Both the position numbers and the translations under genes were made by a program. The notes under the pieces are model-generated. The model did no database searches and was not told the origin of the DNA. It saw only the letters and a list, made by a program, of their open reading frames with translations. From Paenibacillus assamensis DSM 18201 (GTDB taxonomy: Bacteria > Bacillota > Bacilli > Paenibacillales > Paenibacillaceae), in NCBI RefSeq assembly GCF_000422445.1, contig NZ_AULU01000009.1, positions 1 to 64,000 on the forward strand: DNA of 64,000 nucleotides, written 5' to 3'. Shown piece by piece: positions 3,027 to 53,446 of the stretch. The number at the start of each line of letters is the position of its first letter. The stretch's first letter is position 1.

Positions 3027-3674
3027 TTAATCTTCCAATTCTACCTTAAGGACTTTACCTGTCTCAGCACTTACGTATACCGTAGCATCGTCACCTTTTT
3101 TCACATCAATTTCTACTTCATATACGTACTCATACACATGATTACGAAACTTTTTCTCAAGTTCAACCTCTTCAACTTTACCAGTTACTTGAGTTAAAGC
3201 TATTTTCTTAGCTTGCTCCTTGCTAATGTTCACTTTGCCTGTTGGTATGTTTTTCTTCTCATCACGATCATCGCGGTCATCATTATCATCGTCGTTATCA
3301 TCACGGTCGTCATGATCGTTATCGTCATCGTCGTTTTTGAAGTTCTTTTTAAAATCTTTTTCCCAAGTCACATGAGCTGTCGTTGCATCAATGATCACTT
3401 CATCTTCTTTATCTTTACGGTTCTCGAACTCAACATGATAAACGAGACGGCCATTGATTTTTTCCAATTCGATTTCATCAATTTTAGCATCCTTGTACAA
3501 GCCTTTAGCGATTATCTTCGCTTGTGCGAGAGATAGTTTTACTTCATTTTGATTAGCCGTTTGCACAGCTCTTGCCTTCGATTGGTCATTGTTATCCGCC
3601 ATGACTACCGAACCAAATCCTACGCCACCTACTAATACTGCTCCTGCAACTGTTGCTACTACCCAATTTTTCAT
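3027..3674 (-). CDS. Secreted protein with two PepSY domains and an Asp-rich linker
   Basis: 215 residues. A signal peptide (about 1-26, ending near VMADN) is followed by a first PepSY domain (about 45-105, LAQAKIIAK...VDEIELEK-like pattern ending in VTWEKDF). Then comes a roughly 40-residue linker made almost entirely of Asp, Asn and Arg, and a second PepSY domain (about 150-215, ISKEQAKKIAL...GKVLKVELED). PepSY domains are thought to inhibit or chaperone proteases or act in wall-associated propeptides; target unknown. SD AGGAGG lies 8 nt before the ATG. Paralogue of the next gene, which has the same promoter architecture. The acidic linker may bind cations (inference). Confidence 0.85.
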   Translation of the reverse strand: MKNWVVATVAGAVLVGGVGFGSVVMADNNDQSKARAVQTANQNEVKLSLAQAKIIAKGLYKDAKIDEIELEKINGRLVYHVEFENRKDKEDEVIIDATTAHVTWEKDFKKNFKNDDDDNDHDDRDDNDDDNDDRDDRDEKKNIPTGKVNISKEQAKKIALTQVTGKVEEVELEKKFRNHVYEYVYEVEIDVKKGDDATVYVSAETGKVLKVELED

Positions 3675-3780
3675 TTTGTTTTCCTCCTAATAATGTATCG
3701 TTTGAATTTTTAATTTGCGCTTATACTCATTTGGCTCTAAGATGCTGCCGTAAGTTCTTGTTGTTCTTTCCTATGACCTT

Positions 3781-3836
3781 ATATTAACGCTGCAAAATGA
3801 GAACACATGGATAGAAAGATGAGAAATTGATGAGAA
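3781..3836 (-). promoter_or_regulatory. Phased TTCTCAT operator plus -10 for the first PepSY gene
   Basis: Plus-strand ATGAGAA copies at 3797-3803, 3819-3825 and 3830-3836, spaced exactly 22 and 11 bp, read TTCTCAT toward the gene. Ten bases after the last copy is TAATAT (3781-3786), a likely -10. No good -35 is visible. The same arrangement recurs upstream of the neighbouring paralogue. An 11-bp period of direct repeats is typical of OmpR-family activators. Confidence 0.6.
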
Positions 3837-3919
3837 ATAAGCTATAAAAAATGAGATGCTTTATCATGATTGCAATAACTCTGTACAGGCTGTTCGCTCA
3901 TGTCTAAGCCCAAACATGC

Positions 3920-3949
3920 AAAAAAGACACCTCCTGGGGAAAGGTGCCT
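3920..3949 (-). terminator. Intrinsic terminator of the second PepSY gene
   Basis: On the minus strand an 8-bp stem (3942-3949 with 3925-3932, AGGCACCT/AGGTGTCT, one G-T pair) is followed by a six-base T run (3920-3925). It lies about 120 bases after the stop at 4072. Confidence 0.8.
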
Positions 3950-4071
3950 CTTATCAACCCTGCCAATTATATAAAAACAATCGCAATGACCTACATCGCA
4001 CTAGCTAGCTATAGCTGTTTTTGCAATTGTTTCATCTGACAGAACACATCGAATAACTAGACTTCTAAATC

Positions 4072-4608
4072 TTAATCTTCGTCACCGTCATCGTCGTTAT
4101 CATCATCTTGATCGTCATCGCTGTCGCCATTGTCGTCGTTGTCATCATCATCCTGATCATCATTGTCATCGTCTTGATCGTCGTTATCATCATGATCATC
4201 GCGGTCATCGTTTAGATCGTCATTGTCATCATTATCATCGTTGTCATCGCGATCATCATCGTCATTGTCATCATTCAATTTGAAATCTTTTTCGAATGTC
4301 ACACTTCCCGTATCTGCATCAATGTAAATCTCATCTTCTTTATCTTTACGATTCTCAAACTCGACATGATACACAAGACGACCATTTTTCTTTTCCAGCT
4401 CGATCTCTTCAATCTTGCCACCGTTATATACTTGATTCGCAATCTGTTTCGCCAATGCTAACGAAATTCGAACTTCATTCTTTTTCGAAGTTTGCACGAC
4501 CTTAGCTTGCTTATTATCATGATCTGCATTTACTACACTGCCATATCCAAGACCAAGTCCACTTACTACTAACGCACCTGCCACTGAAGTCGCAATCCAT
4601 TTTTTCAT
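4072..4608 (-). CDS. Secreted PepSY protein with a long Asp-rich C-terminal tail
   Basis: 178 residues: signal peptide (about 1-29), one PepSY domain (about 45-108, IANQVYNGGKIEEIELEK...GSVTFEKDF) and then about 65 residues of almost pure Asp with some Asn, Arg and Gln up to the stop. It is clearly a paralogue of the adjacent two-domain protein, but the second PepSY domain is absent and the acidic linker has become a terminal tail. The coding DNA is a degenerate GAT/GAC repeat, so slippage could have produced this. SD AAGGAGG precedes the ATG. Possible roles: divalent-cation binding or protease modulation at the wall; not provable here. Confidence 0.8.
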   Translation of the reverse strand: MKKWIATSVAGALVVSGLGLGYGSVVNADHDNKQAKVVQTSKKNEVRISLALAKQIANQVYNGGKIEEIELEKKNGRLVYHVEFENRKDKEDEIYIDADTGSVTFEKDFKLNDDNDDDDRDDNDDNDDNDDLNDDRDDHDDNDDQDDDNDDQDDDDNDDNGDSDDDQDDDNDDDGDED

Positions 4609-4685
4609 TTTACAATTCCTCCTTGAAAGTTGAATTTTCGTTATACTTCCTGCTGTACGTTTCTACTGTTCTTGCTTACATCCTC

Positions 4686-4741
4686 ATCATAGATGTTGAA
4701 AATGAGAAGAAAACAATAGCAAAATGAGAAATTGCTGAGAA
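4686..4741 (-). promoter_or_regulatory. Phased TTCTCAT operator plus -10 for the second PepSY gene
   Basis: Plus-strand ATGAGAA at 4702-4708 and 4724-4730 and CTGAGAA at 4735-4741: spacing 22 and 11 bp, as at the sister gene. TATGAT (4686-4691) lies exactly 10 bases downstream of the proximal copy, again as at the sister gene. Confidence 0.6.
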
Positions 4742-4800
4742 TATAAGACAACAAAAAACCTGCCCCGTGTAAAAACAGAAAGCAGGCATATACCATCTTC

Positions 4801-5838
4801 TTATTTTTTTCCTAACGTTACTTTCCTCTCAACTACTTTACCATTAACTCGCTGTTTCACCTTCACCTTAATCGTTTTACCCGGCAATACACCTTTTAGC
4901 GCCTCATTCACATCAACAATCGTTTGAACAGGTTGACCGTTTACAGCGAGCATTTTGTCTCCTTTACTCAAACCTGCCTTTTTGGCATTAGCCGCTTTTA
5001 CCTCTGTAATCGTTAATCCTTCTTTCGTCGGCAAACCATAAGAAGCAGCCCAACTCTCTTCCAACATAATCCCAATCGAAGCTCGTCTTACCTTACTATG
5101 TTGGAGCATTTCAGCTACTACCCATCTCACCGTATCTACAGGCACAGCAAATCCAAGCGTATCAACATCCTCACCGAATGCCTTCAACGTATTCACGCCA
5201 ATTACTTCACCACGTAAATTAACAAGGGGTCCACCACTATTACCTGGATTAATCGCTGCATCCGTTTGCAAATATCGATAGGGCTCATCAATGTTACGAT
5301 CCAATCCGCTTACAATACCTGCACTGACACTATTTCGCAGCTTCACTTGTAGAGGGACTCCGAAAGCAACAACCGTTTCACCAAGCTCCACTTTCGCGCG
5401 GTTGGAAGCCAGCTTCAACGTCCTCAAGTTCTTCGCGTTTATTTTAACTAGAGCAATATCTGTCTCTACATCTACAAGAGACTTCACTACATCGTACTTC
5501 TTCCCATCCTGAAAAATAACTTTTGCATCTTTGAGCCCTTTCACCACATGTGCATTTGTAACGATCCAACCATCACTAGCAATGACAAAGCCACTCCCAA
5601 ATCCTAATGCATCCCGCGGATCTTCCACTTCTTCTAATAGCAATGGATCTTGCCCAATAATCATCACTACCGCAGGGTTTACCTGTTTTACTAGATTCGG
5701 AATTACATGTGATGATACCTTCGATAAAGCAGCAGTAGATTGTGCAGCTCCCACAGAATGAGGCGTTACTGTTGCAGTTACAGCTATTACTAACGTTATT
5801 ATGATCGTGATTAATGGCCAATTTCTTATTCTTTTCAA
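4801..5838 (-). CDS. HtrA/DegP-like S1C serine protease with one PDZ domain
   Basis: About 345 residues: an N-terminal membrane anchor or signal (ITIIITLVIAVTATV), a trypsin-like domain with all triad motifs visible (TNAHVV for His, ETDIALVKI for Asp, GNSGGP for Ser) and a C-terminal PDZ domain (about 255-345). HtrA proteases degrade or chaperone misfolded secreted proteins. I choose the TTG at 5838, 8 nt after GGGAG. The open frame runs on to 5952 but crosses the terminator at 5917-5940, so that extension is not credible. Its neighbours, two PepSY proteins, suggest shared envelope-stress or protease-control functions (inference). Confidence 0.88.
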   Translation of the reverse strand: MKRIRNWPLITIIITLVIAVTATVTPHSVGAAQSTAALSKVSSHVIPNLVKQVNPAVVMIIGQDPLLLEEVEDPRDALGFGSGFVIASDGWIVTNAHVVKGLKDAKVIFQDGKKYDVVKSLVDVETDIALVKINAKNLRTLKLASNRAKVELGETVVAFGVPLQVKLRNSVSAGIVSGLDRNIDEPYRYLQTDAAINPGNSGGPLVNLRGEVIGVNTLKAFGEDVDTLGFAVPVDTVRWVVAEMLQHSKVRRASIGIMLEESWAASYGLPTKEGLTITEVKAANAKKAGLSKGDKMLAVNGQPVQTIVDVNEALKGVLPGKTIKVKVKQRVNGKVVERKVTLGKK

Positions 5839-37747: not shown

Positions 37748-37945
37748 TTACAATTTGATTACGTTAGCTGCTTGTGGTCCGCGAGCGCCTTCCACGATAT
37801 CAAACTCAACTGCTTGACCTTCTTCTAGTGTCTTGAAGCCATCAGTTTGGATAGCGGAGAAGTGAACGAACACGTCGTTACCTTCAGCTGTTTCGATGAA
37901 ACCGTAACCTTTTTCTGCGTTGAACCATTTAACTTTACCTTGCAT
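37748..37945 (-). CDS. Cold-shock protein, CspA/CspB family
   Basis: 65 residues from the ATG at 37945, the normal Csp length; the eight-codon upstream extension is unsupported. RNP1 KGYGFIE and RNP2 VFVHFSAI line the single-stranded nucleic-acid surface. Csp proteins act as RNA chaperones. AAGGGA lies about 10 nt upstream of the ATG. It has its own strong promoter (TTGACA-17-TATAGT), so it is not part of the accessory operon that ends just upstream. Confidence 0.96.
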
Positions 37946-38047: not shown

Positions 38048-38839
38048 CTAGTCCGATGTTTTCACCAACTTCGCCCAACTCGACACAATTTCAAACCCCA
38101 CCTTTTCATGCATTTTATGTGCTTGGAAGGTGTAATAATAAGCAAACACTTCTTTTCCTTCACGCAGCAAATCTGAGCAAAGTTTACAATAAATCGAGTA
38201 AGCGTACCCCTTGCCTCTTTCCTCCGGTTTAGTAAATAACCCAGAAGTCACACCTAATTGATTGGTTTGCGCATAAGTTGCACAATGAGAAATAATAGTT
38301 CCGTTACTCTTTACCACATAATTCCTACCGAATCCTTCAGCATGTCGCTCTTTTAATTGATGCTCTAGCAAAGTAGCATCGTAATGCCCTCCCAGCCCCT
38401 CATCTTCAATCAATAACCTTGAAATTTCATACATATCGTCTATTGAAGCTATCTCGATATTGCTGGAATCAAGATTAACGACATTTTTTATTTGTCCAAC
38501 ACTTCCAAACTCAGCTTCATATTCTGGCAGATACTCTTGAATATGGTTAATAATTTGTCCCGTTCCTGTAATAATGGAGGGGTTATTGGCGCCAATAAAC
38601 TCTACAATATCATCCAGCGCATAAGCAGCATGATGGCTATAAATATGGATGCCAGTATAGTATTTGGCCATCAATGCATTTATTTCACCATTGTCATCCA
38701 AACTAACCCAGACATTAAAGTTGCTATTATTAAATCCATATTTATTTAGATTTATATATAAGTATAAACACTTAGAATAATCGTCTCCAATATACTCTAG
38801 CACAGGGGTTCTCCATGACATATCACATTGCATTAGCAT
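38048..38839 (-). CDS. GNAT-family N-acetyltransferase (accessory island)
   Basis: 263 residues. The C-terminal GNAT fold contains an acetyl-CoA loop-like stretch TKPEERGKGYAYSIYCKL (about 207-224) preceded by VTSGLF, and ends with MHEKVGFEIVSSW. The N-terminal half (about 1-130) looks like a degenerate second GNAT-like domain. Predicted to acetylate an amino group; substrate unknown. Last gene of the six-gene operon, 39 bp after the methyltransferase, with AAGGGGGGGG before the ATG. Context suggests acetylation of a modified sugar or amino-alcohol (inference). Confidence 0.75.
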   Translation of the reverse strand: MLMQCDMSWRTPVLEYIGDDYSKCLYLYINLNKYGFNNSNFNVWVSLDDNGEINALMAKYYTGIHIYSHHAAYALDDIVEFIGANNPSIITGTGQIINHIQEYLPEYEAEFGSVGQIKNVVNLDSSNIEIASIDDMYEISRLLIEDEGLGGHYDATLLEHQLKERHAEGFGRNYVVKSNGTIISHCATYAQTNQLGVTSGLFTKPEERGKGYAYSIYCKLCSDLLREGKEVFAYYYTFQAHKMHEKVGFEIVSSWAKLVKTSD

Positions 38840-38878
38840 TCCGTCCCCCCCCTTTCTTGTTATATCAAAAAATCCGGG

Positions 38879-39640
38879 CTACTTCTTCTTTCTTTGTAAA
38901 ACAAACATCCATTGCTTTGTTTCTTTCTGAGCTTTAATGTCCTCATAGAAAAACTCTTCGTTAGTCTTCAATTCAAAGCCTGCATTATACCAGACTTCAA
39001 ACATGTCTTGATATTCTGCCTTTGTTCTATAAATTGCACTATACTCATTCTCCAAGTCTTCAGAATAAAACTTATTCAGAGTGAGCCTTCCATCCAATGC
39101 AATCGGCTCCGATAAATAGATCAAGCACTCATCATCAAATCGTTCAACAAGTTTACTCATCACTTCTTTGGCATCATCATCATTTATGTACATCAATACA
39201 CCACCTGATATGACAAAGCGGTTGAATTTCTTTTTAATAGGAAACGAAACAGTTTCATCTACAAACTCTTGGATAGAAGAATGAACAAAATAGGTCGTAT
39301 CTTTTTTTTCTATATCCTCTCGCAGTTGTATGATATTGATGAATTCCTTTATATAATCTAAACCGACAAAAGTATCTGCAATTGGAGTTATATACTTAGA
39401 TATTCGACCTGTCCCACAGCCTGCTTCAAGAACAACACTATTCTCATCCAGCTCCAACAAAGGAAATCGGTGTTCTAATTCAAAATTTGTCCATGCCTCT
39501 ATCTTGCTTTTATCTTTATCGCCACACAACACTACCGGCGCATCTATATCAATAGAAATTTTATCTACTGCTCTTTTTTTATAAAAGTCTTTCAAACTCT
39601 CTGGATCAATGTGAACATGCTCTTTATATATTCTTTCCAA
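38879..39640 (-). CDS. Class I SAM-dependent methyltransferase (accessory island)
   Basis: 253 residues. SAM-binding motif I VVLEAGCGTGRIS (about 69-81), acidic end of strand 2 in FVGLDYIKE (about 91), and a motif-IV-like FVISGGVLMYI (about 135). It could N- or O-methylate a small substrate; methylation of the amino compound made by the neighbouring PLP enzyme is an attractive guess. The start is TTG with AGGAGGGGGG upstream. Overall composition is AT-rich like the rest of the operon. Confidence 0.8.
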   Translation of the reverse strand: MERIYKEHVHIDPESLKDFYKKRAVDKISIDIDAPVVLCGDKDKSKIEAWTNFELEHRFPLLELDENSVVLEAGCGTGRISKYITPIADTFVGLDYIKEFINIIQLREDIEKKDTTYFVHSSIQEFVDETVSFPIKKKFNRFVISGGVLMYINDDDAKEVMSKLVERFDDECLIYLSEPIALDGRLTLNKFYSEDLENEYSAIYRTKAEYQDMFEVWYNAGFELKTNEEFFYEDIKAQKETKQWMFVLQRKKK

Positions 39641-39678
39641 CAGCCGTCCCCCCTCCTAAACACATATGCTTGCTATAG

Positions 39679-40521
39679 CTATAGCTTTAGTTCAGTCCCA
39701 TCCAGAAATTTAATATACGTCGCATAAGTATGTCCATGCCGTTTCTCTTCTGGAGGCAGCTTCATATACTCTCCATAAATATAAGTCAAAATTTCATCGT
39801 AGCCTTTAGGTGCATCAAAAGTATGTCCTTCAAATTCAACCTTTATCGTCTCAGAAAACCACTCACGTTTAAATATGTATCCCGACATATAGTTGTGAGA
39901 GGCAAGTAACGCTGTTTCATTTTTATTATCTAAATGAGCAAAAAACTCAAACACACGTATAACTAGCTTTCGTGGAATAAAGGAAAGAACGGTGTATAAC
40001 GCTTTACTAAAAGGATTACTTAACGTTTTCTTGCCAACAGGAGCCCATAAAAGTTTTCTACATATTTTACTCATAAACATAGATAGCTTCTGCTTATGCT
40101 TATTACGAGACATGTTGTCTAGCGGAAAAATATCAATGAATATCCCATCTAGTTGTTTGAGATGTTCTTGTCCATATCGAATAAAAGACGTATCCTTCAA
40201 TTTCAACTTTCCATAAACCCAATTGTAGTGCTTATCCGTTTGCTGATTTTGCAAAAAGAACTTGGTATCATCTAGTTCAACACTGCAAATTTCGCAAAAT
40301 TTATCATAATCTCCCCTACTCATTTCGATATCTATATCATCATCCCAAGGAATAAATCCTTTATGTCTAATTGCACCGATTAACGTTCCATATGATAAAT
40401 AATATCGAATATTATGTTTTTTACATATTCGATCTACTTCAATTAATAGAGACAACATTTCCATTTGAAGCTTTTTTAACTGTTCATCCGTTAGCTTAAT
40501 ATAATCTATTCCTTGTCTCAT
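39679..40521 (-). CDS. LicD-family phosphotransferase (accessory island)
   Basis: 280 residues. The LicD/fukutin signature is complete: YGTLIGAIRHKGFIPWDDD (about 44-62) followed by IDIEM, giving the metal-binding aspartates of a nucleotidyltransferase-fold. LicD proteins move phosphocholine (or related phospho-alcohols) from a CDP-linked donor onto glycans. It sits 12 bp after an NTP transferase that could make such a donor. No choline kinase or choline transporter (licA/licB) is present in this window, so the donor may be something other than choline. Confidence 0.87.
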   Translation of the reverse strand: MRQGIDYIKLTDEQLKKLQMEMLSLLIEVDRICKKHNIRYYLSYGTLIGAIRHKGFIPWDDDIDIEMSRGDYDKFCEICSVELDDTKFFLQNQQTDKHYNWVYGKLKLKDTSFIRYGQEHLKQLDGIFIDIFPLDNMSRNKHKQKLSMFMSKICRKLLWAPVGKKTLSNPFSKALYTVLSFIPRKLVIRVFEFFAHLDNKNETALLASHNYMSGYIFKREWFSETIKVEFEGHTFDAPKGYDEILTYIYGEYMKLPPEEKRHGHTYATYIKFLDGTELKL

Positions 40522-40533
40522 ATCCCACCTATA

Positions 40534-41247
40534 CTAAACAACCTTTACTTTATTTATGTGTGCAATGATTCTTTCATAATCATCAAAATAATCAATTTCC
40601 GACCAAAACATTCCGCTAATATCAATCGTTTCTATGTTCTTCTTTTCTTCTTCGACTAATGAATATAATATATTTTCCCACCACAATTGGTGCTGTTGAG
40701 TTCCTATTAAATATTCTAATTTCTCTGTGAACTCTGCTAAAAATGCCTTTCTTATTTTTCCAATCCCTACATATTCGCAAGTTCGTTCTTTTAAAGGTAG
40801 ATCTTTACCATATTTCTTAATGTATCCATTCTCTAGCATTAAGAAGTAATCACCTTCTACTGTCCTACCCGTGTCCACCATTAATGCACAATCTTTCTTC
40901 GTCTCTATAATTAAATCTAAAATATCATCTTCAATATACACATCACCATTCATAATTATCGTATCATCTGTTAGCTCTTCTCTGGCAAACCAGAAAGAAG
41001 CGATACTATTCGTCACATTATAGAACGGATTAAAATAGTAGGTGACATCCAAACCTTCCAAAGCTTCATAAATTTTAGTTTCACGATAACCGACGCAAAC
41101 AATTGGTTGAATATTTCGCTCCAATAACATCATTACACTTCTTCTAATTAACGGCATTCCACTAACAGGTAATACAGATTTGGGGATTTCCTCTATCATT
41201 CTTGATATTCTTGTTCCTCTTCCTGCTGCCAACAAAATAGCCTTCAT
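40534..41247 (-). CDS. Sugar/alcohol-phosphate nucleotidyltransferase, LicC-like
   Basis: 237 residues. Nucleotide-binding signature LAAGRGTRISR (about 6-16), IPKSVLPV with the conserved Lys (about 21-28), and IIMNGDVYIEDD (metal Asp, about 97). The C-terminal pattern IETIDISGMFWSEIDYFDDYERI resembles LicC-type CTP:phosphocholine cytidylyltransferases and their ethanolamine-phosphate or phosphonate relatives. Predicted to make a CDP-activated alcohol for the LicD and TagB/F-like neighbours. Base (CTP or other) is not provable by eye. Confidence 0.8.
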   Translation of the reverse strand: MKAILLAAGRGTRISRMIEEIPKSVLPVSGMPLIRRSVMMLLERNIQPIVCVGYRETKIYEALEGLDVTYYFNPFYNVTNSIASFWFAREELTDDTIIMNGDVYIEDDILDLIIETKKDCALMVDTGRTVEGDYFLMLENGYIKKYGKDLPLKERTCEYVGIGKIRKAFLAEFTEKLEYLIGTQQHQLWWENILYSLVEEEKKNIETIDISGMFWSEIDYFDDYERIIAHINKVKVV

Positions 41248-41274
41248 GAGCTCGTATCCCCCTCTATACTGAAT

Positions 41275-42348
41275 CTATGTACATATCACATCATTAACTT
41301 GATCCACTTCTTTAAACTGCTCCCAAAATATGCGCATAGTATCAATGCTGCCAGTAGTTACTCTAATCCAATCCGACAAAATAGGTGCATGATAAGTCTT
41401 TATTAAAATATTTCTCTGCTTCAATGCTTCAAAAATTTCTTTCGGTTTCTTATTGCTTTTAATTAGTACATAATTACCGTAATTAAAATGATATTTATAG
41501 TTATACTGTTCAAGCTGCGATAATAAATAATCTCGACCATGTTTCTCTATCTCAATTAAATCATCAATAATTTTTGTATCCTCCAGTAGCATTTCAGCGA
41601 ATCGAATTGCAAAACAGTTAACAGGATACGTTGAACACGCTTTTTTTATTTCACTAATCAATTGATCATTTGAAATGATAAATCCAACTCGACATCCAGC
41701 AATAGATAGCATTTTTGAAAATGTTCGAAATACCATAACATTATCGTATTCATTCACAACATGTAAAAATGTTGTAGGATTGAAATAATAATAGGCCTCA
41801 TCGATGACAACTACTGCATTGTTTTCTCTCGCTTTTTCTATTACAGCTCTTACTTCCATTTCCGTCCAAGAAGCTCCGACAGGACTATTAGGATTCAATA
41901 AAACAACGATTCCCGTATCAGAATCAACGGTGGCGAGTATATCATCTAGACTCACTTCGAATTTTTCATTATAAGGAACAGGTGAATGCAGCATTCCGTA
42001 CATATTTATGTACACAGCGTACATTTCGAAGCTTGGGCTAACTGAAACCACCTTTTTCCCAGGCTCACCAAATACTTCGAACAACAATCGAATCGCATCA
42101 TCTGAGCCGTTTGTTAAGCAAATATTAGTTGGTTCACAATGCAAATACCCTGCTAAACGTCCGATTAACGAAGCCATTTCAGGATATGTGGCAACATACT
42201 CAGGAGTTATACTATTCATTACTTTCTCAAAAAATGGAGTAGGTAGCCCTTCTGGGTTCTCATTCATATCCAATCTAAGATAATTTTTTCGACTTTCACT
42301 ATATGATGTTCTATATAATTTTTTTATATTTGGATTAACATAATACAT
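41275..42348 (-). CDS. Fold-type I PLP enzyme, HisC/CobD-like (aminotransferase or decarboxylase)
   Basis: 357 residues from the ATG at 42348 (AAGGAAGG about 10 nt upstream, 7 bp after the previous stop); the longer frame overlaps the upstream gene. The PLP lysine is in FRTFSKMLSIAGCRVGF, with LNPNSPVGA and VVIDEAYYYF, and substrate-binding DMNENPEG near the start. Relatives include histidinol-phosphate aminotransferase, threonine-phosphate decarboxylase (CobD), and capsule enzymes that make ethanolamine phosphate or serinol phosphate in Campylobacter. No his genes are nearby, so a role in making an amino-alcohol phosphate is likelier than histidine synthesis (inference). Confidence 0.8.
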   Translation of the reverse strand: MYYVNPNIKKLYRTSYSESRKNYLRLDMNENPEGLPTPFFEKVMNSITPEYVATYPEMASLIGRLAGYLHCEPTNICLTNGSDDAIRLLFEVFGEPGKKVVSVSPSFEMYAVYINMYGMLHSPVPYNEKFEVSLDDILATVDSDTGIVVLLNPNSPVGASWTEMEVRAVIEKARENNAVVVIDEAYYYFNPTTFLHVVNEYDNVMVFRTFSKMLSIAGCRVGFIISNDQLISEIKKACSTYPVNCFAIRFAEMLLEDTKIIDDLIEIEKHGRDYLLSQLEQYNYKYHFNYGNYVLIKSNKKPKEIFEALKQRNILIKTYHAPILSDWIRVTTGSIDTMRIFWEQFKEVDQVNDVICT

Positions 42349-42355
42349 GTTAATT

Positions 42356-43831
42356 CTACCTTCCTTCATGTAGCGCAAATAATTTTTGAAGCACTTCTTT
42401 CTTAATACTTTGATGAATCTTTTGTCCCGATGTACCATCCGCATTACTTATGCTGTTTATAAATCTGGAAATACGCTCTTCTTTATTAACATCTTCATTA
42501 TTCTCTACCATTTCGACAAATTGTGATACAGTTGTATTTTTACCAGTAAAGTAACAGCCTAAATAGTCAGCATAATAATACCTATTAGGTTCCAACATGT
42601 GTTCACTTAAGAGGCCTAATACCGGCTTCTCCGTCACAATGTATTGCAGCATAACAGAACTATAATCACTTATGATTGCGTCAGATGCAGCTACTGCTGG
42701 ATAAATATCACTACTATAATCAATAGTTATATTAGCAGCTTGCTTCAACTGTTCTTCCATCTTCTCAAATGCATCAACTAGATGCGGCCGCATTGTCTGT
42801 AATGTGACTTTCGTAAGCGGGTGCGGGCGCCAAATTAATGCACTTTTCTTATGAGAAATAAAATAATTTAAAACATGCACAATTTGTTCAAACCAGCTGC
42901 TAGTAGATAAGAGATCAGCTATACCTGTATTAAATAAAAATACTTTCTTATCTTTCATCGTTTCTTTCCAAGAAACCGGAAGCTCTTTATGCTCTTTCAT
43001 TACTGCCAACGTAGCATCAAGTTTAGGAGACCCTAAATTCAATACTTTATTAGCCCCAACTCCGTTTATAAGAAAAGCATCTTTTGTACGATTTGATTGC
43101 GCAATAATTTTAGTTACATTTCTGAAAGCTGGGAAAGCGGGTATATCTGGTTTCTCCGAACTACCAGCCATATAATAAGGAACATAAACTAACATATCTG
43201 TATACCGGGCGAGATTATCCGTAAAGAAGCGCGGGTTAACCATCGTAAGTGTATTGTATCTATCATATGGATTGTGTATATAGATAATATCCGGACATCT
43301 ATTTTCGAAATCATACTTCTCATATGACACAACATTTAAATCCTTGGGAAATTGATCTCCTTCATAGCAAACCTCAGAAAATTGCCCTTCAGAGTTCTTT
43401 TCATAGTACGGAATTGGCACGACATAGCAAGAACAATTTAGATCCTGCTCAGCTTCTCTGTAAATGCTTTCTAACGAGTCCCACATAGACACCTTGTATG
43501 GCATAAACGCTATTTCTATATCGGTCCTCACATCATCTACAATCATAGATTTTATATTAATTAATATATGCTTTATTTTTTCTAAATGAGAGATATAGAA
43601 TTGAGGTTCTACTGTATCTAACATTGCCAAAGAAATAGTGTTGATTGCTTGCTTAAGAAGTACACATACTGCATGCTCTTCACTCATTAAATTAGTCAAA
43701 AATACTAATCCATCATGACAATCCCGTAGTATGACAATTTCTTGCTTATTATCAATTTTTGCAGCATAATCTACGCCGTTCTCTATCGTAGCAACAAGAT
43801 CTAATATTTGTTGTTTTTGACTTAATCTCAT
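42356..43831 (-). CDS. CDP-glycerol glycerophosphotransferase-like protein (TagB/TagF family)
   Basis: 491 residues. The C-terminal half carries family motifs: IWRPHPLTK (about 343), IIAQSNRTKDAF (about 250) and SDAIISDYSSVMLQYI (about 400-415) followed by KPVL. The N-terminal 190 residues are helical and not recognised. TagB/F enzymes move a phospho-alcohol from a CDP donor. Related proteins occur in flagellin-modification loci of Clostridioides difficile, where a GlcNAc on flagellin carries a phosphodiester-linked amino acid derivative. First gene of the six-gene operon; AGAGAGG precedes the ATG. Confidence 0.8.
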   Translation of the reverse strand: MRLSQKQQILDLVATIENGVDYAAKIDNKQEIVILRDCHDGLVFLTNLMSEEHAVCVLLKQAINTISLAMLDTVEPQFYISHLEKIKHILINIKSMIVDDVRTDIEIAFMPYKVSMWDSLESIYREAEQDLNCSCYVVPIPYYEKNSEGQFSEVCYEGDQFPKDLNVVSYEKYDFENRCPDIIYIHNPYDRYNTLTMVNPRFFTDNLARYTDMLVYVPYYMAGSSEKPDIPAFPAFRNVTKIIAQSNRTKDAFLINGVGANKVLNLGSPKLDATLAVMKEHKELPVSWKETMKDKKVFLFNTGIADLLSTSSWFEQIVHVLNYFISHKKSALIWRPHPLTKVTLQTMRPHLVDAFEKMEEQLKQAANITIDYSSDIYPAVAASDAIISDYSSVMLQYIVTEKPVLGLLSEHMLEPNRYYYADYLGCYFTGKNTTVSQFVEMVENNEDVNKEERISRFINSISNADGTSGQKIHQSIKKEVLQKLFALHEGR

Positions 43832-44034
43832 CTCATGTATCCTCTCTAAATTAAGAACTTATGATCATATAATATTAGTTTTCGTAATAAAGAAATAATT
43901 AAATGGAATTCGATACCTTACCTGTATTATCGACAAAATAGAACAAAAAGATGAATAGTTTTTCCCCTCTGCCTATCTATACACCTTATTCGCAGAGCTA
44001 TATTTCAATAGTGTCTCCTATTCCATGAACAAAT

Positions 44035-44060
44035 AAAAAAACGACACCTAAAAAGGCGTC
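44035..44060 (-). terminator. Intrinsic terminator downstream of the GT2-TPR gene
   Basis: On the minus strand GACGCCT and AGGTGTC (7 bp, one G-T pair, 4-base loop) are followed by G and seven T. Confidence 0.8.
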
Positions 44061-44071
44061 CATATTGTGAA

Positions 44072-44104
44072 AAAGCCTGTCCTTTGTAAGATGAGACAGG
44101 CTTT
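44072..44104. terminator. Second terminator-like stem
   Basis: AAAGCCTGTC (44072-44081) and GACAGGCTTT (44095-44104) form a 10-bp perfect stem. Short T runs flank it on both strands, so it may act in either direction. Confidence 0.7.
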
Positions 44105-44146
44105 CTTTGCTCCAAACTGTTTAATTTTTTAAAGATGAGACATTTA

Positions 44147-44290
44147 TTACATCGTCAGAGGAAATCCAAGTGGATCTCCATTTTCATCATAATCTGCACG
44201 ACAGTTGTTATCAAGACTTGTTCCCTGATATATAAGGGAACAAGTACATGTCTCTAAAATATTCGAGCATATTTTTATTATTCTGTATAG
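44147..44290 (-). pseudogene. Possible C-terminal gene remnant
   Basis: On the minus strand a 48-codon stretch without stops, ending at TAA 44147-44149, gives a plausible protein end (NNCRADYDENGDPLGFPLTM). It has no start codon or SD and begins just after the GT2 stop, in another frame. I do not recognise the family. It could be the tail of a gene lost from the island, or chance. Confidence 0.25.
44217..44244. repeat. Inverted repeat, 10-bp arms
   Basis: CTTGTTCCCT (44217-44226) and AGGGAACAAG (44235-44244) with an 8-base AT loop and no T run. It is located 60-85 bases past the GT2-TPR stop. It could stabilise the mRNA end. Confidence 0.5.
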
Positions 44291-44302
44291 ATGACATATG
44301 AC

Positions 44303-45397
44303 TTAACGTGTGAGTATCTTTAATCGGTCATTTGCAACATCATATCCGTCAAGAGCTGCACACTGATAATGATGCTTCGCACGCGATATATCTCCAACAA
44401 TTTCCCAGTACACGCCTAAATTGAAATGCGCCTTGAACGTACCTACTCCTTTTGAAGTTTCATAGTTCGAGGAGTTGGTCTCACCTAGAGCTAGACAATG
44501 CATAAACACATCTGGAATTAATTCTAGGGCCGACGAATGCCCCATACTGGTCAAAGTAAGTCCATATACAAAATACAAATCTGTATAGTCAGGATACAAT
44601 TCGATCGCATTCATAACTATTTTCAATACGTCGTTATATTGTTTTAAGTAAAATAGAGAATAACATAATGAAAGCCATGCATTAGACATATAAGCAACCG
44701 TCTTTTGCTCATCCATAGGAAGCAGCTGGATGGCATTATATAGATGCTGTACAGCCTTCTCATACTGTTTACCAACAAAATATGTTTGGCCAAGTTGATA
44801 TTGCGTATATGGATTGCTCTGATCCTGACACTCTGCTTCCAACAGTAAACGTAGGTTGCGTTCCAATTTACCGCGTTCCGCAATGGCACTGTCTGTATAT
44901 CCTAGATGTAAGAGACTAACCGAGGTCATAATCGACGAAGGCTGTATTCCATTACAATTCAATTGTTCATGAATTTTACCCTCGTATCTATAACTAGGAG
45001 TATTTGGGAACAAACGTGTTACCTGGCTGTATACTACACTCCCATCCTCTTTAACATTTTCAACTTTTACTTTACCCGGACTGCTTGTGCCAGATTGAAC
45101 ATATCCCTGTAATGCATCTATCGAACTCTCTATCAACCGCTCATCAGCATCCATTATAAGTATATAGGGTTGGGTGGCAAGCTCAATAACAGCATTTCTA
45201 GCAGTTGCGAAGCAATCTTTCCAAAGTATCGGTATCGTTTGAATTCCATATTGCCGTGCAACACCCTCTGTATTGTCTGTAGATCCTGTGTCCCCAATAA
45301 CTATTTCATTAACAACATCGGCTACAGACGATAAACATTGTGCAAGCATATCCTCTTCATTTTTTACGATCATACACACAGATATCGGTAGCTTCAC
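44303..45397 (-). CDS. Family 2 glycosyltransferase with C-terminal TPR region (candidate flagellin glycosyltransferase)
   Basis: 364 residues. GT-A domain (about 1-170) with SVCMIVKNEEDML, GDTGSTDNT and the metal motif MDADER (about 82-87), followed by TPR-like helical repeats (about 195-360: YQLGQTYFVGKQYEKAVQHLYNAI and similar). The same build occurs in protein O- and S-glycosyltransferases such as SunS and in flagellin glycosyltransferases. It probably glycosylates a protein acceptor; flagellin is the best candidate given FliB 16 bp upstream and hag nearby. Acceptor and sugar are not demonstrated. Confidence 0.83.
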   Translation of the reverse strand: MKLPISVCMIVKNEEDMLAQCLSSVADVVNEIVIGDTGSTDNTEGVARQYGIQTIPILWKDCFATARNAVIELATQPYILIMDADERLIESSIDALQGYVQSGTSSPGKVKVENVKEDGSVVYSQVTRLFPNTPSYRYEGKIHEQLNCNGIQPSSIMTSVSLLHLGYTDSAIAERGKLERNLRLLLEAECQDQSNPYTQYQLGQTYFVGKQYEKAVQHLYNAIQLLPMDEQKTVAYMSNAWLSLCYSLFYLKQYNDVLKIVMNAIELYPDYTDLYFVYGLTLTSMGHSSALELIPDVFMHCLALGETNSSNYETSKGVGTFKAHFNLGVYWEIVGDISRAKHHYQCAALDGYDVANDRLKILTR

Positions 45398-45413
45398 TCA
45401 ACGGCCCTCACTT

Positions 45414-46661
45414 CTACATATTTTTATCTTTGACAAGCGTAGCCAAATGAGCCAAAGTATCGAATCCATTCTCTTTAAACAGCTTCGATATTTGTACAAG
45501 GTAAGTTGTATTATGTTCAATAACTCGCGAGAAGTTCTGAATAATAAACACCGCATATTCAGGCGTAAGATTTTTATGAAATCCTGAAATGCCTATCATG
45601 TGCATCTTCAGGACAGAGAACAAAATACATATTTTTGTATAGTCTTCAAATATTTTATTAGAACTTGTATTTGGGAAAAGACTCTCATATAAATAATTAA
45701 CCAAATAATTTTCAAGGATATATTCGTATTTTTCTAGAAATGGTTGGTAAAATTGCTTGTAATTCTCAATATAAACTTTCTCTAAATCACTCAATTCAAT
45801 ACCAACTTGTTCTTGTATGTTTAATCCTTGTATCATTTCATTAAGACACTTCGTATATCTTTCGTTACTAATACCCATGTTATTTCTAATTTGCACCATT
45901 TCTATAATCATTTTAACCTGGAAAGTAGTACTAATCGAAATTTTCTCTAAACTGTTTATATAATCAGGGTGGTTCATTTTCATTCTATATTCTTCAATTA
46001 TATGCGGTACAACATCTAATTGATTATTGTCTAATTTTTGTTGGACATTATTTATAAATATCCCTAAGAAAATAAGTCTGTCACCAATTTTCATGCTTCG
46101 ATTTTGTATAATTTCAATAGAAAACATCCGTAAGCCCCAGAAAAGCTGCTCAGCAAACCTAGGATGCTGCGTATTTAAACGGTAATTCAATCCCCAGTCA
46201 GAATTAATATCAAACTCTAGTTGTTCAAACTCTATTCCATCTGGATTTAGCAAAGCTAGTCTAGCAATTTCTGGACAAGATAATTTGGCTGATAATTCAA
46301 TCGTACTGTCAACTTGATTGACAACCCTCGGATAGGTAGTACAAGTAGAACATAGCGCTTTTTCCCCTAAATTTAACTGAATCCTACATAGTTTATTTTC
46401 ATCAAGCATCGGACATGCAGCAGTCTTAGCATCTAATATGAATGATGCATACTTTACATCTGATGCTGTATCGTTCTTTATGCGTTTCATCCCTTTATTG
46501 AGTAAGTTAGTAAGAGTAGGGTGCTTTACACTTTTATATTTTTTATACGTTTTCTTATCAATTGAAATTCCCCAACCCGCACAGCAAGTATCTTCGCACT
46601 CACTTCCTATACACGCAAAGGACTTCATATATAATGGGATTAACACTTGTTTCTTCATCAT
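45414..46661 (-). CDS. fliB: Flagellin lysine-N-methylase FliB
   Basis: 415 residues. The diagnostic Cys-rich N-terminus FACIGSECEDTCCAGW (Cys17, 22, 26, 27) and a second cluster ACPMLDENKLC...ALCSTC (about 90-115) probably bind an Fe-S cluster. FliB methylates surface lysines of flagellin in Salmonella. The C-terminal half (about 150-415) is helical and typical of the family. SD AAGGAG precedes the ATG. It forms an operon with the GT2-TPR gene. The substrate is presumably the flagellin encoded about 6 kb away, which carries several Lys in its variable centre. Confidence 0.9.
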   Translation of the reverse strand: MMKKQVLIPLYMKSFACIGSECEDTCCAGWGISIDKKTYKKYKSVKHPTLTNLLNKGMKRIKNDTASDVKYASFILDAKTAACPMLDENKLCRIQLNLGEKALCSTCTTYPRVVNQVDSTIELSAKLSCPEIARLALLNPDGIEFEQLEFDINSDWGLNYRLNTQHPRFAEQLFWGLRMFSIEIIQNRSMKIGDRLIFLGIFINNVQQKLDNNQLDVVPHIIEEYRMKMNHPDYINSLEKISISTTFQVKMIIEMVQIRNNMGISNERYTKCLNEMIQGLNIQEQVGIELSDLEKVYIENYKQFYQPFLEKYEYILENYLVNYLYESLFPNTSSNKIFEDYTKICILFSVLKMHMIGISGFHKNLTPEYAVFIIQNFSRVIEHNTTYLVQISKLFKENGFDTLAHLATLVKDKNM

Positions 46662-46723: not shown

Positions 46724-49700
46724 TTACTTGTACTCAAAATTAAGAGAGCTACTTGATTGTTTACCATCAGGATTTACTACTGTAAAGCTGACAATACCTG
46801 GAGCAGTTGCACTTGGGACTGTAAAGTATATTCTTCTTGAATTTACATACTCAGCCTTATACTCAATACCATTAAAGATAATTTTGATGCCTTTTACGAA
46901 ATTGGAACCATCAATATATATCGTGGTTCCACCAGCAACAGGACCAGAAGATGGTGACACAGAACGCAGTTGCGGTGCCGGTACTTCAGGTGGTGCCTCG
47001 TAAGTAAATACCGTACTTGTTGAGTTACCTGATGGATTTGTCACTGTAATCGTAATTTCACCTGGTGTAGTTGACGCAGGAGTATTGAAAAAAATCCGAG
47101 TGCTGTTTACTAAAGTATAAGGTATCGTTTGGTTATTCATAGTTACAACAAGTCCAGACTCTAGGTATCTGCCGTCTACATAGACAGTTGTCCCCCCTGC
47201 CATTGGACCTTTATTTGGAGTGATACGTGTAATTTCTGGCTTAGCTTCTTCATACGTATATCCATTTGCTACTTTAACTTGATTACCATCTGGATTCGTT
47301 AACGTAACATCCACACTTCCAGCAGTAGGAGAAGCAGGTACATAAACTCTTACTGATGTTGTCCCCAAGAAAGCGGCTAAATCAACTGTTTGAGTACCAA
47401 AAGTAACTTTTGCTCCTTTTTGGAAATCGGTACCTACAATATCAATTAAGCCTCCCCCTCTTTTATTTCCACTATTAGGGGTAATGCTTTTAATTGTTGG
47501 TGGAAGAATCTCTGGCGGTTTATCGTAAGTGAACCCATTTGGCAATTCGCCAAACTTAGTGTCCGGATTTACAATTTTGATCGTAACCGGACCATGGGAA
47601 GTAACAGCCGGAGTAGTAGCATACATACGAGTTGCATTAACAAAAGTCGCGTTCAAATCAATTTCCTGACCATTATGGATCATGTACATTTTTGCCCCAG
47701 AACGAATACCGCTACCATCTACGTAAATCGTAGTACCTCCAATAATCGGGCCATTCTTTGGGCTAACAGCTCTAACTTTTGGTGCTTCAAATTCTAACGG
47801 CTTGTCATAAGTAAATGTTTCAGGAGCAAGGCCGGATTGAGTATCCGGATTAGTAACTTTTAGAGAAACACCTTCCGATACGCTCCACTTTGGAGAAAGT
47901 ACTGAAAGGCGATTTGAATTAATAAAGTCCGCCTCAAGTTCAATTTGCTCTCCCCACAGCACTTTAGCACCTTTTACAAAGTTAGAACCATCAATATATA
48001 CAGTGGTTCCACCCTCAAGCGGTCCATTTTTAGGACTTATCCCTGAAACCTTTGGTGCTGGTGGTGGAGGTGGCAAAATATATTTAAAGCCTTTTTCAAG
48101 AACTGACACAGTACCATCTGGGTTTTGAACCTTTACATCAACAATGTCCACAGTTGGCCATACAGGTGTCTCAACCGTTAACTTATTTGAAGAGAAATAA
48201 GTTAGTTTAGGTGCTTCTACCGTACCGAAAAATACTTTTGCATTTCTATCAAATAATTGACCATTAAGTGTAATTGTTTCATTACCAGTTGTCACACCTT
48301 CAGCTGGTGTAATCGACTTCAACTCCATCTTGGGAGGCTCTTCATAGCGGAATGCATCTGTTACTAGCACTTGTGTGCCATCAGGATTTTCAACTGTAAC
48401 ATTTACTAGTCCTGGTTGTTGTCCAGCCGGTGTTACTGCCTGCATGTATATGCTTGTGTGATAAGTAACGCTTGGAGAATAATTCTCCCCCACCTTTATC
48501 TTAACACCTGGCATAAAGTTTTTCCCTGCAATAGTTATCTGCGTTCCACCAGCTAATGGACCTGAAGACGGTGAAATACTTGAAACTTCTGGGTCAGCGA
48601 AATAAGCAAACGGTGCAGTAGCTTCCTGGTTGTCATCATTTACAACTTTTAAAGTAGTCTCGCCTTGTTTTCCTACTGGAACAACTGCCTCAATTTCCTT
48701 ATCATTAATGAATGTTACGTTTGTAGCAAATCCGCCACCTACTGGAACATTCAGATTTGGGCGGAAATGTTCACCTACGATTTTTATCTTTTCCCCACCA
48801 GCTATGTGACTTTTTGCTGGAGTTACTGACATAATAATAGGGGCTGGATATTTAACTTCTAGAGTAGTAGCAGGAGGTGAGTAAATTCTATTCGCTCCTG
48901 TGTAATCCTTATACGTAATTTTGGAGTCTGCAGTCGTCACTTGAACTTTGCCCGCGCCTCTATCAGCCTTATGTCTGATTTTATAAGTAAAATCAAGCTT
49001 ATCATTTTTTAATTCTAGGAATTTCCAAGTCAATGTGTTACCATTTACAACTGGCTTAGGAATGTTATGTTCATACGATCCCGGAACAATTTCGAAAGCG
49101 TCATTCACAACTTCCGTAACGGTTACATCATAAGCACTTGCAAGTCCAATCTCCTTAACAATCGCAGAATAAATCTCTGCTAATCCCGTTGACCCCAAAA
49201 CAAAATGATGGTGATGGGAGGTCGTAGCCATGTCCATCATCAATTTGTTTGGAGCACTGTTATTAGGATCATCATTTTTCGACAACAATGCAATGGTATA
49301 AAAAACAATACCTGCATTTTTAGCGTCTTCTGCTTTCTTAAGCGCATACTTATAAGGATCCAGTCCATCTCCACCTACAGTAGCCGCACCGTCAGTCATG
49401 AGAACAATAACAGGCTGTGCATCAGGACGATGATTCGTCAGTTCCGCTATTGCCTTATCAATGGAAGCTCCTGTAGCCGTGCTTCCATTTGCTATGATCG
49501 TATCAATATAATTTTTAGCAGCCACTGCATCTGATGTTAGTGGAAAGCTTGTTGCAGCAGAACTAAAGTCTACTACCCCTACTCTATGCTTTGAAAGATC
49601 CATAAGATCAATAAAGCCTTTCGCAGCATCAAGGGCATTTTTCATTTTATCTTCACCATTATTGGCACCAGGACTCATACTGCCTGATTTGTCAATTACC

Positions 49701-49915
49701 AAAATAACATCATTAGGCTTTACAACATTGACAGGAGGTGTACCCTGGATACTTAGTTTCACTTCTGCTTCTTGTCCTACAATGATGCTGTTTGGATTGA
49801 CACTTCTTGAAGCACTAACATAATTTGTCGAAGCCTGTACAGTTGACAAAGGTATCTGTACAAATAAGACAATAAATGTGAGCACAAGAGTAAAAATGTG
49901 CTTCATCTTCCTCAC
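46724..49915 (-). CDS. Large secreted protein: VWA domain plus eight IPT/TIG repeats
   Basis: 1063 residues. A signal peptide (about 1-29, ending VQA-S) and short linker lead into a von Willebrand A domain (about 65-250). The domain has a complete MIDAS (VIDKSGSMS, Asp75/Ser77/Ser79; later TGASID and MTDGAA). A beta-rich stretch and eight IPT/TIG repeats of about 85-90 residues follow (each opening like SISPSSGPLAGGTQITI and closing like VENPDG). No LPXTG, SLH or TM anchor is visible. It resembles adhesins. Start GTG with GGGGG upstream, 39 bp after the fliT-position gene, so it may be co-expressed with late flagellar genes. Confidence 0.88.
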   Translation of the reverse strand: MRKMKHIFTLVLTFIVLFVQIPLSTVQASTNYVSASRSVNPNSIIVGQEAEVKLSIQGTPPVNVVKPNDVILVIDKSGSMSPGANNGEDKMKNALDAAKGFIDLMDLSKHRVGVVDFSSAATSFPLTSDAVAAKNYIDTIIANGSTATGASIDKAIAELTNHRPDAQPVIVLMTDGAATVGGDGLDPYKYALKKAEDAKNAGIVFYTIALLSKNDDPNNSAPNKLMMDMATTSHHHHFVLGSTGLAEIYSAIVKEIGLASAYDVTVTEVVNDAFEIVPGSYEHNIPKPVVNGNTLTWKFLELKNDKLDFTYKIRHKADRGAGKVQVTTADSKITYKDYTGANRIYSPPATTLEVKYPAPIIMSVTPAKSHIAGGEKIKIVGEHFRPNLNVPVGGGFATNVTFINDKEIEAVVPVGKQGETTLKVVNDDNQEATAPFAYFADPEVSSISPSSGPLAGGTQITIAGKNFMPGVKIKVGENYSPSVTYHTSIYMQAVTPAGQQPGLVNVTVENPDGTQVLVTDAFRYEEPPKMELKSITPAEGVTTGNETITLNGQLFDRNAKVFFGTVEAPKLTYFSSNKLTVETPVWPTVDIVDVKVQNPDGTVSVLEKGFKYILPPPPPAPKVSGISPKNGPLEGGTTVYIDGSNFVKGAKVLWGEQIELEADFINSNRLSVLSPKWSVSEGVSLKVTNPDTQSGLAPETFTYDKPLEFEAPKVRAVSPKNGPIIGGTTIYVDGSGIRSGAKMYMIHNGQEIDLNATFVNATRMYATTPAVTSHGPVTIKIVNPDTKFGELPNGFTYDKPPEILPPTIKSITPNSGNKRGGGLIDIVGTDFQKGAKVTFGTQTVDLAAFLGTTSVRVYVPASPTAGSVDVTLTNPDGNQVKVANGYTYEEAKPEITRITPNKGPMAGGTTVYVDGRYLESGLVVTMNNQTIPYTLVNSTRIFFNTPASTTPGEITITVTNPSGNSTSTVFTYEAPPEVPAPQLRSVSPSSGPVAGGTTIYIDGSNFVKGIKIIFNGIEYKAEYVNSRRIYFTVPSATAPGIVSFTVVNPDGKQSSSSLNFEYK

Positions 49916-52624: not shown

Positions 52625-53446
52625 TTAACGAAGCAATTGAAGTACGCCTTGAGGCTGTTGGTTAGCTTGTGCCAACATTGCAGTAGCAGCTTGGTTAAGG
52701 ATGTTGTTTTTCGTGAATGTGGACATTTCTTTCGCCATGTCAACGTCACGAATACGAGATTCTGCAGATTGCAAGTTCTCAGCAGTTGTACCAAGGTTGT
52801 TAATTGTGTGCTCCAAACGGTTTTGCACAGCACCCAAGCCGGAACGGATCTCGGAAACTTGGTTAAGTGCCGCTTGAACTTTCTCAAGGTTACCTGTTGC
52901 TGTAGCATTTGCACCATCAAGTTTAGTCAAGTTATTAACTTTAAGTTCAGCAGCTGTAGCTTTAGAAAGAGTCAACTTGATAGTTTCGTCTTTGTTAGCT
53001 CCTACTTGGAATACGATTTCTGCTGGAGCAGAAGCACCAAGCAAGTTCTTCGTATTGAAGCTTGTTTGAGTAGCAACAGCATCGATTTGCTCAGTCAACT
53101 GTTTAACTTCAGCATCAATTTTAGCTGTATCAGAAGTTGTTAGAACTTCGTTCGCACCTTGCGTGTAAAGCTCAGCCATACGTTGAAGCATAGCATGAGT
53201 TTCGTTCAAAGCACCTTCAGCTGTTTGGATCAAGGAAATGCCGTCCAAAGCATTCTTGGAAGCTTGCTCCAAGCCGCGGATTTGGTTACGCATTTTCTCG
53301 GAGATTGCAAGACCTGCTGCATCGTCAGCTGCACGGTTGATACGGTAGCCAGAAGACAATTTCTCCAAAGATTTACCTTGTTGAGTGTTGTTGAAAGATA
53401 GTTGACGGTGTGCATTGTATGCACTCATATTGTGATTAATACGCAT
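52625..53446 (-). CDS. hag: Flagellin
   Basis: 273 residues. Conserved D0/D1 ends: MRINHNMSAYNAHRQL at the start, SSGYRINRAADDAAGLAISE (about 31-50), and the C-terminal DVDMAKEMSTFTKNNILNQA ending QGVLQLLR. The central D2/D3 region is very short (about 140-190, KDETIKLTLSKATAAELKVN region), so the filament is minimal. That stretch contains several Thr/Ser and Lys, potential sites for the glycosyltransferase and FliB encoded nearby (inference). Expressed from a perfect sigma-D promoter. Its leader carries two GGA motifs for CsrA control. No second flagellin gene in the window. Confidence 0.98.
   Translation of the reverse strand: MRINHNMSAYNAHRQLSFNNTQQGKSLEKLSSGYRINRAADDAAGLAISEKMRNQIRGLEQASKNALDGISLIQTAEGALNETHAMLQRMAELYTQGANEVLTTSDTAKIDAEVKQLTEQIDAVATQTSFNTKNLLGASAPAEIVFQVGANKDETIKLTLSKATAAELKVNNLTKLDGANATATGNLEKVQAALNQVSEIRSGLGAVQNRLEHTINNLGTTAENLQSAESRIRDVDMAKEMSTFTKNNILNQAATAMLAQANQQPQGVLQLLR

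Follow-up and report, generated by a model that had tools for sequence, protein, structure and literature searches.

What do the six tightly spaced genes near the flagellin gene of Paenibacillus assamensis DSM 18201 make, and does their product end up on flagellin? The window analysed here is a 64,000-nucleotide stretch of this genome (contig NZ_AULU01000009.1), for which an original prediction had proposed a flagellin-modification island with a phosphodiester-type chemistry. Our comparisons suggest that the six-gene operon is likely a portable flagellin-modification cassette that would work like the C. difficile type A system with the donor module exchanged, and that a phosphodiester modification of flagellin is very likely. 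On our best reading, the new part would be an amino-alcohol donor used in a type A-like flagellin phosphodiester modification. The literature describes flagellin-modification islands of type A, of b-type, in Geobacillus and in Enterobacterales, among others; within the literature covered we found no report of this gene combination, and a search for flagellin together with LicD gave no match on flagellin modification, judged by title.

The operon spans 38048-43831 on the minus strand, on which the other window genes described below also lie. Its first gene encodes a TagF-like (CD0244-type) protein, a putative cytidine diphosphate (CDP)-alcohol phosphotransferase of 491 aa (42356-43831; PF04464, 49.5 bits, cut-off 22.1). 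It is followed by a pyridoxal phosphate (PLP) enzyme of the HisC superfamily (41275-42348, 357 aa; PF00155, 146.5 bits), a LicC/PntC-like nucleotidyltransferase (NTPT) that probably uses cytidine triphosphate (40534-41247, 237 aa; PF12804, 43.3 bits, cut-off 27), a LicD-family phosphotransferase that is the genome's sole PF04991 match (39679-40521, 280 aa; 161.8 bits, cut-off 22.6), an S-adenosylmethionine methyltransferase with a TTG start (38879-39640, 253 aa; PF13649, 29.4 bits, cut-off 27) and a GNAT N-acetyltransferase, the variable last gene of the cassette (38048-38839, 263 aa; PF00583, 27.9 bits, cut-off 20.7). The gaps of 7, 27, 12, 38 and 39 bp assume that the PLP enzyme starts at Met-33 (42348), a start backed by aligned orthologues; the mechanical open reading frame (ORF) extends to 42444. 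Upstream of the operon lie a GT2-TPR glycosyltransferase, the putative first-sugar transferase for flagellin (44303-45397, 364 aa; PF00535, 66.2 bits, plus TPRs), and the flagellin lysine N-methylase FliB (45414-46661, 415 aa; NF038110, 311.7 bits, cut-off 85; no Pfam match). The proposed acceptor is the flagellin Hag (52625-53446, 273 aa; identified by Pfam), whose gene is preceded by a 12/12 sigma-D-type promoter starting at 53586. All eight ORFs of the original prediction are present at their positions; the tight operon with gaps of 7-39 bp and the pairing of GT2-TPR with FliB beside fliS-fliD-hag were both borne out, and profile searches upheld the labels TagB/F-like, LicC-like NTPT, LicD, methyltransferase, GNAT, GT2-TPR and FliB.

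Among solved structures in the PDB, the best relatives of the NTPT profile over its length are LicC (1jyk, near-full-length) and then 6pd1, an NTPT/aminotransferase fusion that we take to be PntC. LicC and PntC act on small amine phosphates or phosphonates. The TagF-like profile gave weak matches alone, the best being an epimerase and TarL (E 0.005 for TarL); as a single sequence it had no PDB match up to E 1, and GNAT had none up to E 0.01.

The tie to flagellin glycosylation comes from the relatives of these genes (G and L numbers are our handles for genomes and loci). Four Eubacterium tenue family loci (L096-L099) have hag, GT2-TPR, a SerB-like HAD protein, NTPT, methyltransferase and TagF, arranged as in cd0240-cd0244. 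The window TagF is 30-36% identical to the TagF proteins of these loci, and the window methyltransferase is 34-36% identical over 250-252 aa (E 1e-44 to 1e-48) to the methyltransferases of three of the four, the shorter ORF of L096 having been left out of the comparison. In a TagF tree of 28 rows, from which decayed copies and certain large relatives (L054, for example) were omitted, the eight cassette rows fall in one group (support 100/99) with an unlabelled Clostridiaceae metagenome-assembled genome row inside it, and this group shares one side of a 94/88 branch with the four type A-like rows. Moreover, in G170 and G093 (loci L038 and L039) TagF is fused to GT2-TPR in proteins of 1049 aa (glycosyltransferase 11-336, TagF 643-1038) and 1146 aa (glycosyltransferase 1-330, TagF 648-1132), respectively. 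The available text of PMC10714395 describes PA1091 of Pseudomonas likewise as one protein with GT2 and phosphotransferase parts, and CD0244 as required for full type A modification. The homology of TagF and the methyltransferase, together with the two fusions, supports the predicted likeness to the C. difficile type A and P. aeruginosa b-type systems.

The placement of other copies points the same way. G102 carries its cassette behind a GT2-TPR gene, in the interval from hag to flaG-fliD. A 489-aa protein with no Pfam match at 0.001 (L037 2013-3482) is encoded between that cassette and flaG. Between its hag and flaG genes, G093 has both gene sets: the cassette and a HAD-NTPT-methyltransferase trio arranged like cd0241-cd0243. 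Judged from these sequence comparisons, the phosphatase/NTPT pair of type A is replaced in the window by the PLP enzyme, the LicC-like NTPT and LicD.

We then asked how widely this set occurs, defining the cassette core as TagF, a PLP-type aminotransferase, NTPT and LicD. The core is intact in eight genomes: the window's own, G102, G170, G093, G346, E. tenue (L034), G269 (Paenibacillus sp. ACRRX) and G273 (P. taiwanensis). Two more genomes have decayed copies, G258 and G445; in the latter, TagF, PLP and LicD pieces stand with a CD0241/CD0242-like pair and the locus map revealed no LicC-like NTPT. Because the core recurs intact in seven other genomes and decayed in two, the gene set is not a chance assembly. 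Six of the eight intact copies lie inside flagellar clusters, as does the decayed copy of G445, that of G258 lying outside; FliF is found downstream in L034 and L095. Compared with the window, the intact copies have NTPTs that are 72-88% identical and LicD proteins that are 58-69% identical.

In the window's family, 39 of 394 genomes (window counted) gave TagF-like matches as such at E<=1e-10, and in the Eubacterium tenue family 8 of 71 did so at E<=1e-8. A scan of named genomes gave four further loci, two of them identical, by their contig coordinates, to the G269 and G273 loci; these four and 20 of the 36 remaining family TagF matches made up a first mapping of 24 loci, 13 of which have a BLAST match (E<=1e-5) to a window flagellar protein. 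A second mapping of 16 loci comprised six from TagF matches and ten from NTPT matches outside the family. The cassette is rare, since NTPT matches above 70% identity occur in 2 of 398 genomes of the class (window counted) and at E<=1e-40 in 1 of 398 genomes of the phylum, the window alone. The six genes are a rare, portable cassette. The combination had been called unfamiliar in the original prediction: rare it is, but it recurs.

Which donor, then, would the exchanged module supply? The PLP enzyme, originally described as HisC/CobD-like, belongs to the HisC superfamily, although it scores 257.2 bits against HisC TIGR01141, under the curated cut-off of 276.6; the CobD half of the label did not hold. 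Its score against CobD TIGR01140 is 160.7 bits, under the curated cut-off of 290.6. A PLP tree was built from 29 rows, five intact cassette enzymes and the 24 best non-cassette matches, with a midpoint root for drawing only. In it the cassette enzymes cluster together (100/100) at the end of a long stem (3.07), nearest to three HisC-like rows (97/89), and six CobD rows form a separate group with 100% bootstrap. The cassette enzymes retain the C-terminal Arg and an FSK lysine motif, whose lysine is presumably the catalytic residue. At the position of an Arg in 1fg3 that we take to be residue 322, Lys is found in all five cassette rows and in 1 of the 24 others, the remaining 23 having Arg. With its score, its place in the tree and the lack of CobD sequence features, CobD identity was rejected.

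An indication of the chemistry comes from G269, G273 and G346, in which the HisC-like enzyme gives way to a class V aminotransferase of AepZ-like type (72-96% identity between the three copies). In NCBIfam the one in G269 is nearest to PhnW-AepZ (136 bits), which for that of G346 (140 bits) comes after BhcA (146 bits); both PhnW-AepZ scores are under the cut-off of 361. The NTPTs of these three genomes are nevertheless 79-88% identical to the window NTPT, and because the NTPT stays so similar despite the swap, both aminotransferase types probably give the same amino-phosphate. Two unrelated aminotransferase-type enzymes working with one NTPT would thus probably converge on a single product by transamination, which fits the previously suggested chain from PLP enzyme to NTPT to transferase. 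We consider it quite likely that the product of the PLP enzyme is the substrate of the NTPT, and somewhat likelier that this product is an amino-alcohol than an amino-acid; serinol phosphate specifically is a tentative candidate. The formation of serinol phosphate from dihydroxyacetone phosphate (DHAP) by transamination is described for Cj1437 in the available text of PMC12096443.

Among the other donor sources looked for, none was found in the genome. TagD (TIGR01518) has no match in the window's genome, a TarI-type CDP-ribitol source not having been searched for, and TagD exceeds its cut-off in 0 of 8 cassette genomes and 2 of 14 control genomes. The single hit for a CD0242-like NTPT, 29% identical over about 120 aa, is the operon's own NTPT. 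With no TagD and no further CD0242-like NTPT in the genome, the donor most likely comes from the operon NTPT; since the genome also has one LicD, TagF and LicD probably draw on the same CDP donor.

Other donor genes do occur beside relatives of TagF and LicD. In L041 and L042, which contain flagellar genes, the two relatives are accompanied by an IspD-like NTPT, an epimerase and a pyruvyltransferase. In the flagellar locus L046 they are accompanied by a CTP_transf_like-GFO_IDH fusion and by an NTPT fused to a PLP domain of the serine hydroxymethyltransferase fold (3030-5336, 768 aa) beside LicD. These loci support a modular logic; they say nothing on which transferase does what. The TagF relatives of L046-L055 and L100, whose open frames are about 840-890 aa long, make up a second group; the L046 member, although it shares 36% identity over 428 aa with the TagF of the window, has no Pfam match at 0.001.

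We also looked at the surroundings of the operon. Read from right to left, the minus strand has hag, flaG, fliD, fliS, fliT, a gene for a secreted VWA and TIG protein, fliB and GT2-TPR, then a 471-bp gap, the six genes, and finally csp (about 37748-37945), hpf and secA; the names flaG, fliD, fliS, fliT, hpf, secA and csp were given by eye from sequence. The VWA gene (46724-49915, context) encodes 1063 aa with eight TIG domains and is likened by this architecture to CmoA, the collective-motility factor of Paenibacillus sp. NAIST15-1, which has 1,064 aa and a VWA and TIG architecture (available text of PMC5072692). Synteny was compared over 20 kb beside hpf in 18 other genomes of the same genus, and the slot proved variable. 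G269 has CmoA (70%), FliB (74%) and GT2-TPR (68%) in the window order without the six-gene operon there; between GT2-TPR and csp-hpf (L112, about 1640-1940) it carries a decayed TagD-like gene with internal stops, a remnant of a module that occupied this slot before. In G272, CmoA and FliB are present and both GT2-TPR and the operon are missing; other slots contain different GT2-TPR proteins or long gene runs matching nothing in the query set. Because the slot contents differ among these 18 genomes, the window operon appears to have been inserted at a site where flagellin-modification genes turn over.

The end of the cassette varies as well. GNAT is the last gene in three of the eight intact cassettes (window, G102, G170) and a second methyltransferase family, with members 57-94% identical, in four (G269, G273, G346, E. 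tenue); G093 has the HAD-NTPT-methyltransferase trio. A methyltransferase of the window type is found in seven of the eight.

From homology and context we propose the following mechanism, to which all qualifications above apply. GT2-TPR would add a first sugar to flagellin Ser/Thr in the cytoplasm, FliB separately methylating lysines. The PLP enzyme would provide an amino-alcohol phosphate, most likely by transaminating a small ketone that bears a phosphate (one example being the conversion of DHAP into serinol phosphate), which the LicC-like enzyme would convert to a CDP-amino-alcohol and the methyltransferase would N-methylate. The TagF-like protein would then move the phosphoryl group to the flagellin-linked sugar, giving the phosphodiester, and LicD would transfer a second phosphoryl group or work at another position; that TagF acts first and LicD second is conceivable, a little short of likely. 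GNAT would acetylate an amine. A bolder version, which we regard as rather improbable, is a zwitterionic flagellin tag, not described before, with two amino-alcohol phosphates per glycan, one added by TagF and the next by LicD, the free serinol hydroxyl allowing extension; it would be N-methylated or N-acetylated by whichever last gene is present, and the exchange of its donor module between bacteria as a cassette would give an interchangeable filament chemistry.

These proposals have to be weighed against other readings of the same genes. TagF, LicD and LicC-like enzymes are classical families of teichoic acid and phosphocholine metabolism, one of the weak PDB matches to TagF is TarL, and an NTPT 40% identical to that of the window is found in L090, a capsule-type locus with LCP, Wzz, a flippase and a CDP-alcohol phosphotransferase. 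The operon might thus decorate a cell-wall polymer, teichoic-acid-like or capsular, with its flagellar neighbourhood incidental. We consider this unlikely in view of the TagF/GT2-TPR fusions next to hag, the predominance of intact copies in flagellar clusters and the fact that none of the six genes is for export or ligation of a polymer; the absence of TagD over cut-off speaks against it with the TarI limit given above, and a glycerol-teichoic version was rejected for want of a TagD match. It is about as improbable that the modification goes to some other glycoprotein, secreted or on the surface, such as an S-layer protein, CmoA or an adhesin. The CmoA-like gene in the window's flagellar cluster and the two cassettes away from flagellar genes would suit such an acceptor, but the maps of G102, G170, G093, G346 and E. 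tenue have no CmoA match, the fusions join TagF to GT2-TPR, and the homologous type A loci have flagellin as substrate according to the available text of PMC10714395.

Two further alternatives concern the donor. The rank of 6pd1 and the PhnW-AepZ resemblance of the alternative aminotransferase in G269 and, after BhcA, in G346 would suit a phosphonate donor, 2-aminoethylphosphonate, which a PntC-like NTPT would activate. Phosphoenolpyruvate mutase (TIGR02320), however, is over cut-off in 0 of 9 cassette genomes, a count that lacks a positive control as the 14 control genomes also gave 0; its one weak match, in G093, has 42.8 bits against a cut-off of 319.6, and PF13714 reaches 21.8 and 20.1 bits in the window's genome, under its cut-off of 31.5. 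With no mutase over cut-off, we rejected this donor as very improbable. Less remote, if still doubtful, is a PLP enzyme that decarboxylates phosphoserine or phosphothreonine to ethanolamine phosphate or aminopropanol phosphate. CobD is a decarboxylase of the HisC superfamily, and ethanolamine phosphate resembles phosphocholine, the substrate of LicC. The cassette enzymes are set apart from CobD in the tree, each group with 100% bootstrap, and lack its sequence features, and the class V aminotransferase that fills the same slot in three genomes is not expected to decarboxylate.

Several observations also weigh against a flagellin cassette with an amino-alcohol donor. The window encodes GT2-TPR and TagF separately, and the 471 bp between GT2-TPR and the operon contain terminator-like hairpins (44043-44110; one stem at 44060-44043 found by scan, a second, longer one just upstream by eye), although the scan overall gave 10 terminator-like sites against 8.4 in shuffles and proves nothing by itself. 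No sigma-D-type promoter beyond chance was found before TagF, the best site (8/12) being reached in 495 of 500 shuffles. The cassettes of G269 and G273 lie away from flagellar genes, the former beside an LPXTG-type surface protein gene and the latter beside a gene for a kinase/AAA/LuxR-type protein. E. tenue has the second methyltransferase family alone, so the methyltransferase is not invariant. The G+C content of the cassette genes (33-37%; secA and hpf 45-47%, window 43%) does not single them out because fliB is also low (32%). AlphaFold gave poor models without support for TagF (five sequences, mean predicted local distance difference test 57.2) and NTPT (four sequences, 46.5). As to the donor, a CDP-ribitol source falls outside the search, the only CD0242-like match is the operon's own NTPT, and no CD0241-like phosphatase is found among the six genes, the rest of the genome not having been searched.

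As for the proposed acceptor, the middle region of flagellin contains 6-8 Lys in the four FliB-bearing loci examined and 2-4 in five whose maps show no FliB match, a small sample made up of the window hag and the flagellins of L112, L122, L109, L042, L037, L038, L039 and L034.

If the reading of a type A-like flagellin cassette with an exchanged donor module is correct, type A-like modification would be a chassis (GT2 and TagF, usually with the methyltransferase) that takes interchangeable CDP-donor modules, and phosphodiester flagellin glycans would extend to the Paenibacillus group. A new CDP-amino-alcohol would be predicted, the split between TagF and LicD would become testable, and a chemistry known from pathogens would be open to study in a different setting.

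Each known system shares a part of this arrangement. The lic1 phosphocholine system includes LicC and LicD, and Cj1437 of C. jejuni is a PLP enzyme of the HisC type. As in lic1, a LicC-like NTPT adjoins LicD in the window, but the six genes include no choline kinase or transporter and have the PLP enzyme instead. In the Cj1437 route, too, transamination of DHAP supplies a surface glycan with an amino-alcohol phosphate (available text of PMC12096443); the product is amide-linked in the capsule, however, and not a phosphodiester on flagellin. For the Enterobacterales flag-2 loci with TagB/TagD, CDP-glycerol-type phosphotransferases have been proposed for a flagellin glycan (PMC6993521), with TagD as donor enzyme; the text of that paper contains neither 'LicD' nor 'aminotransferase'. 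The P. aeruginosa b-type island (pa1088-pa1091) combines GT2 and TagF-like domains in one protein, as do L038 and L039, but, as far as its available description goes, has four genes without a PLP enzyme, LicD or GNAT, and its group is dimethyl-threonine phosphate (available text of PMC11833859). Finally, C. difficile type A (cd0240-cd0244) shares with the window a GT2 beside flagellin, an NTPT, a homologous methyltransferase and a TagF-like transferase. The window operon differs from it by lacking a CD0241-like phosphatase, by an NTPT of another subfamily (29% identical over about 120 aa to the CD0242-like NTPT of G093) and by the addition of the PLP enzyme, LicD and GNAT, and its donor is presumably not CDP-threonine.

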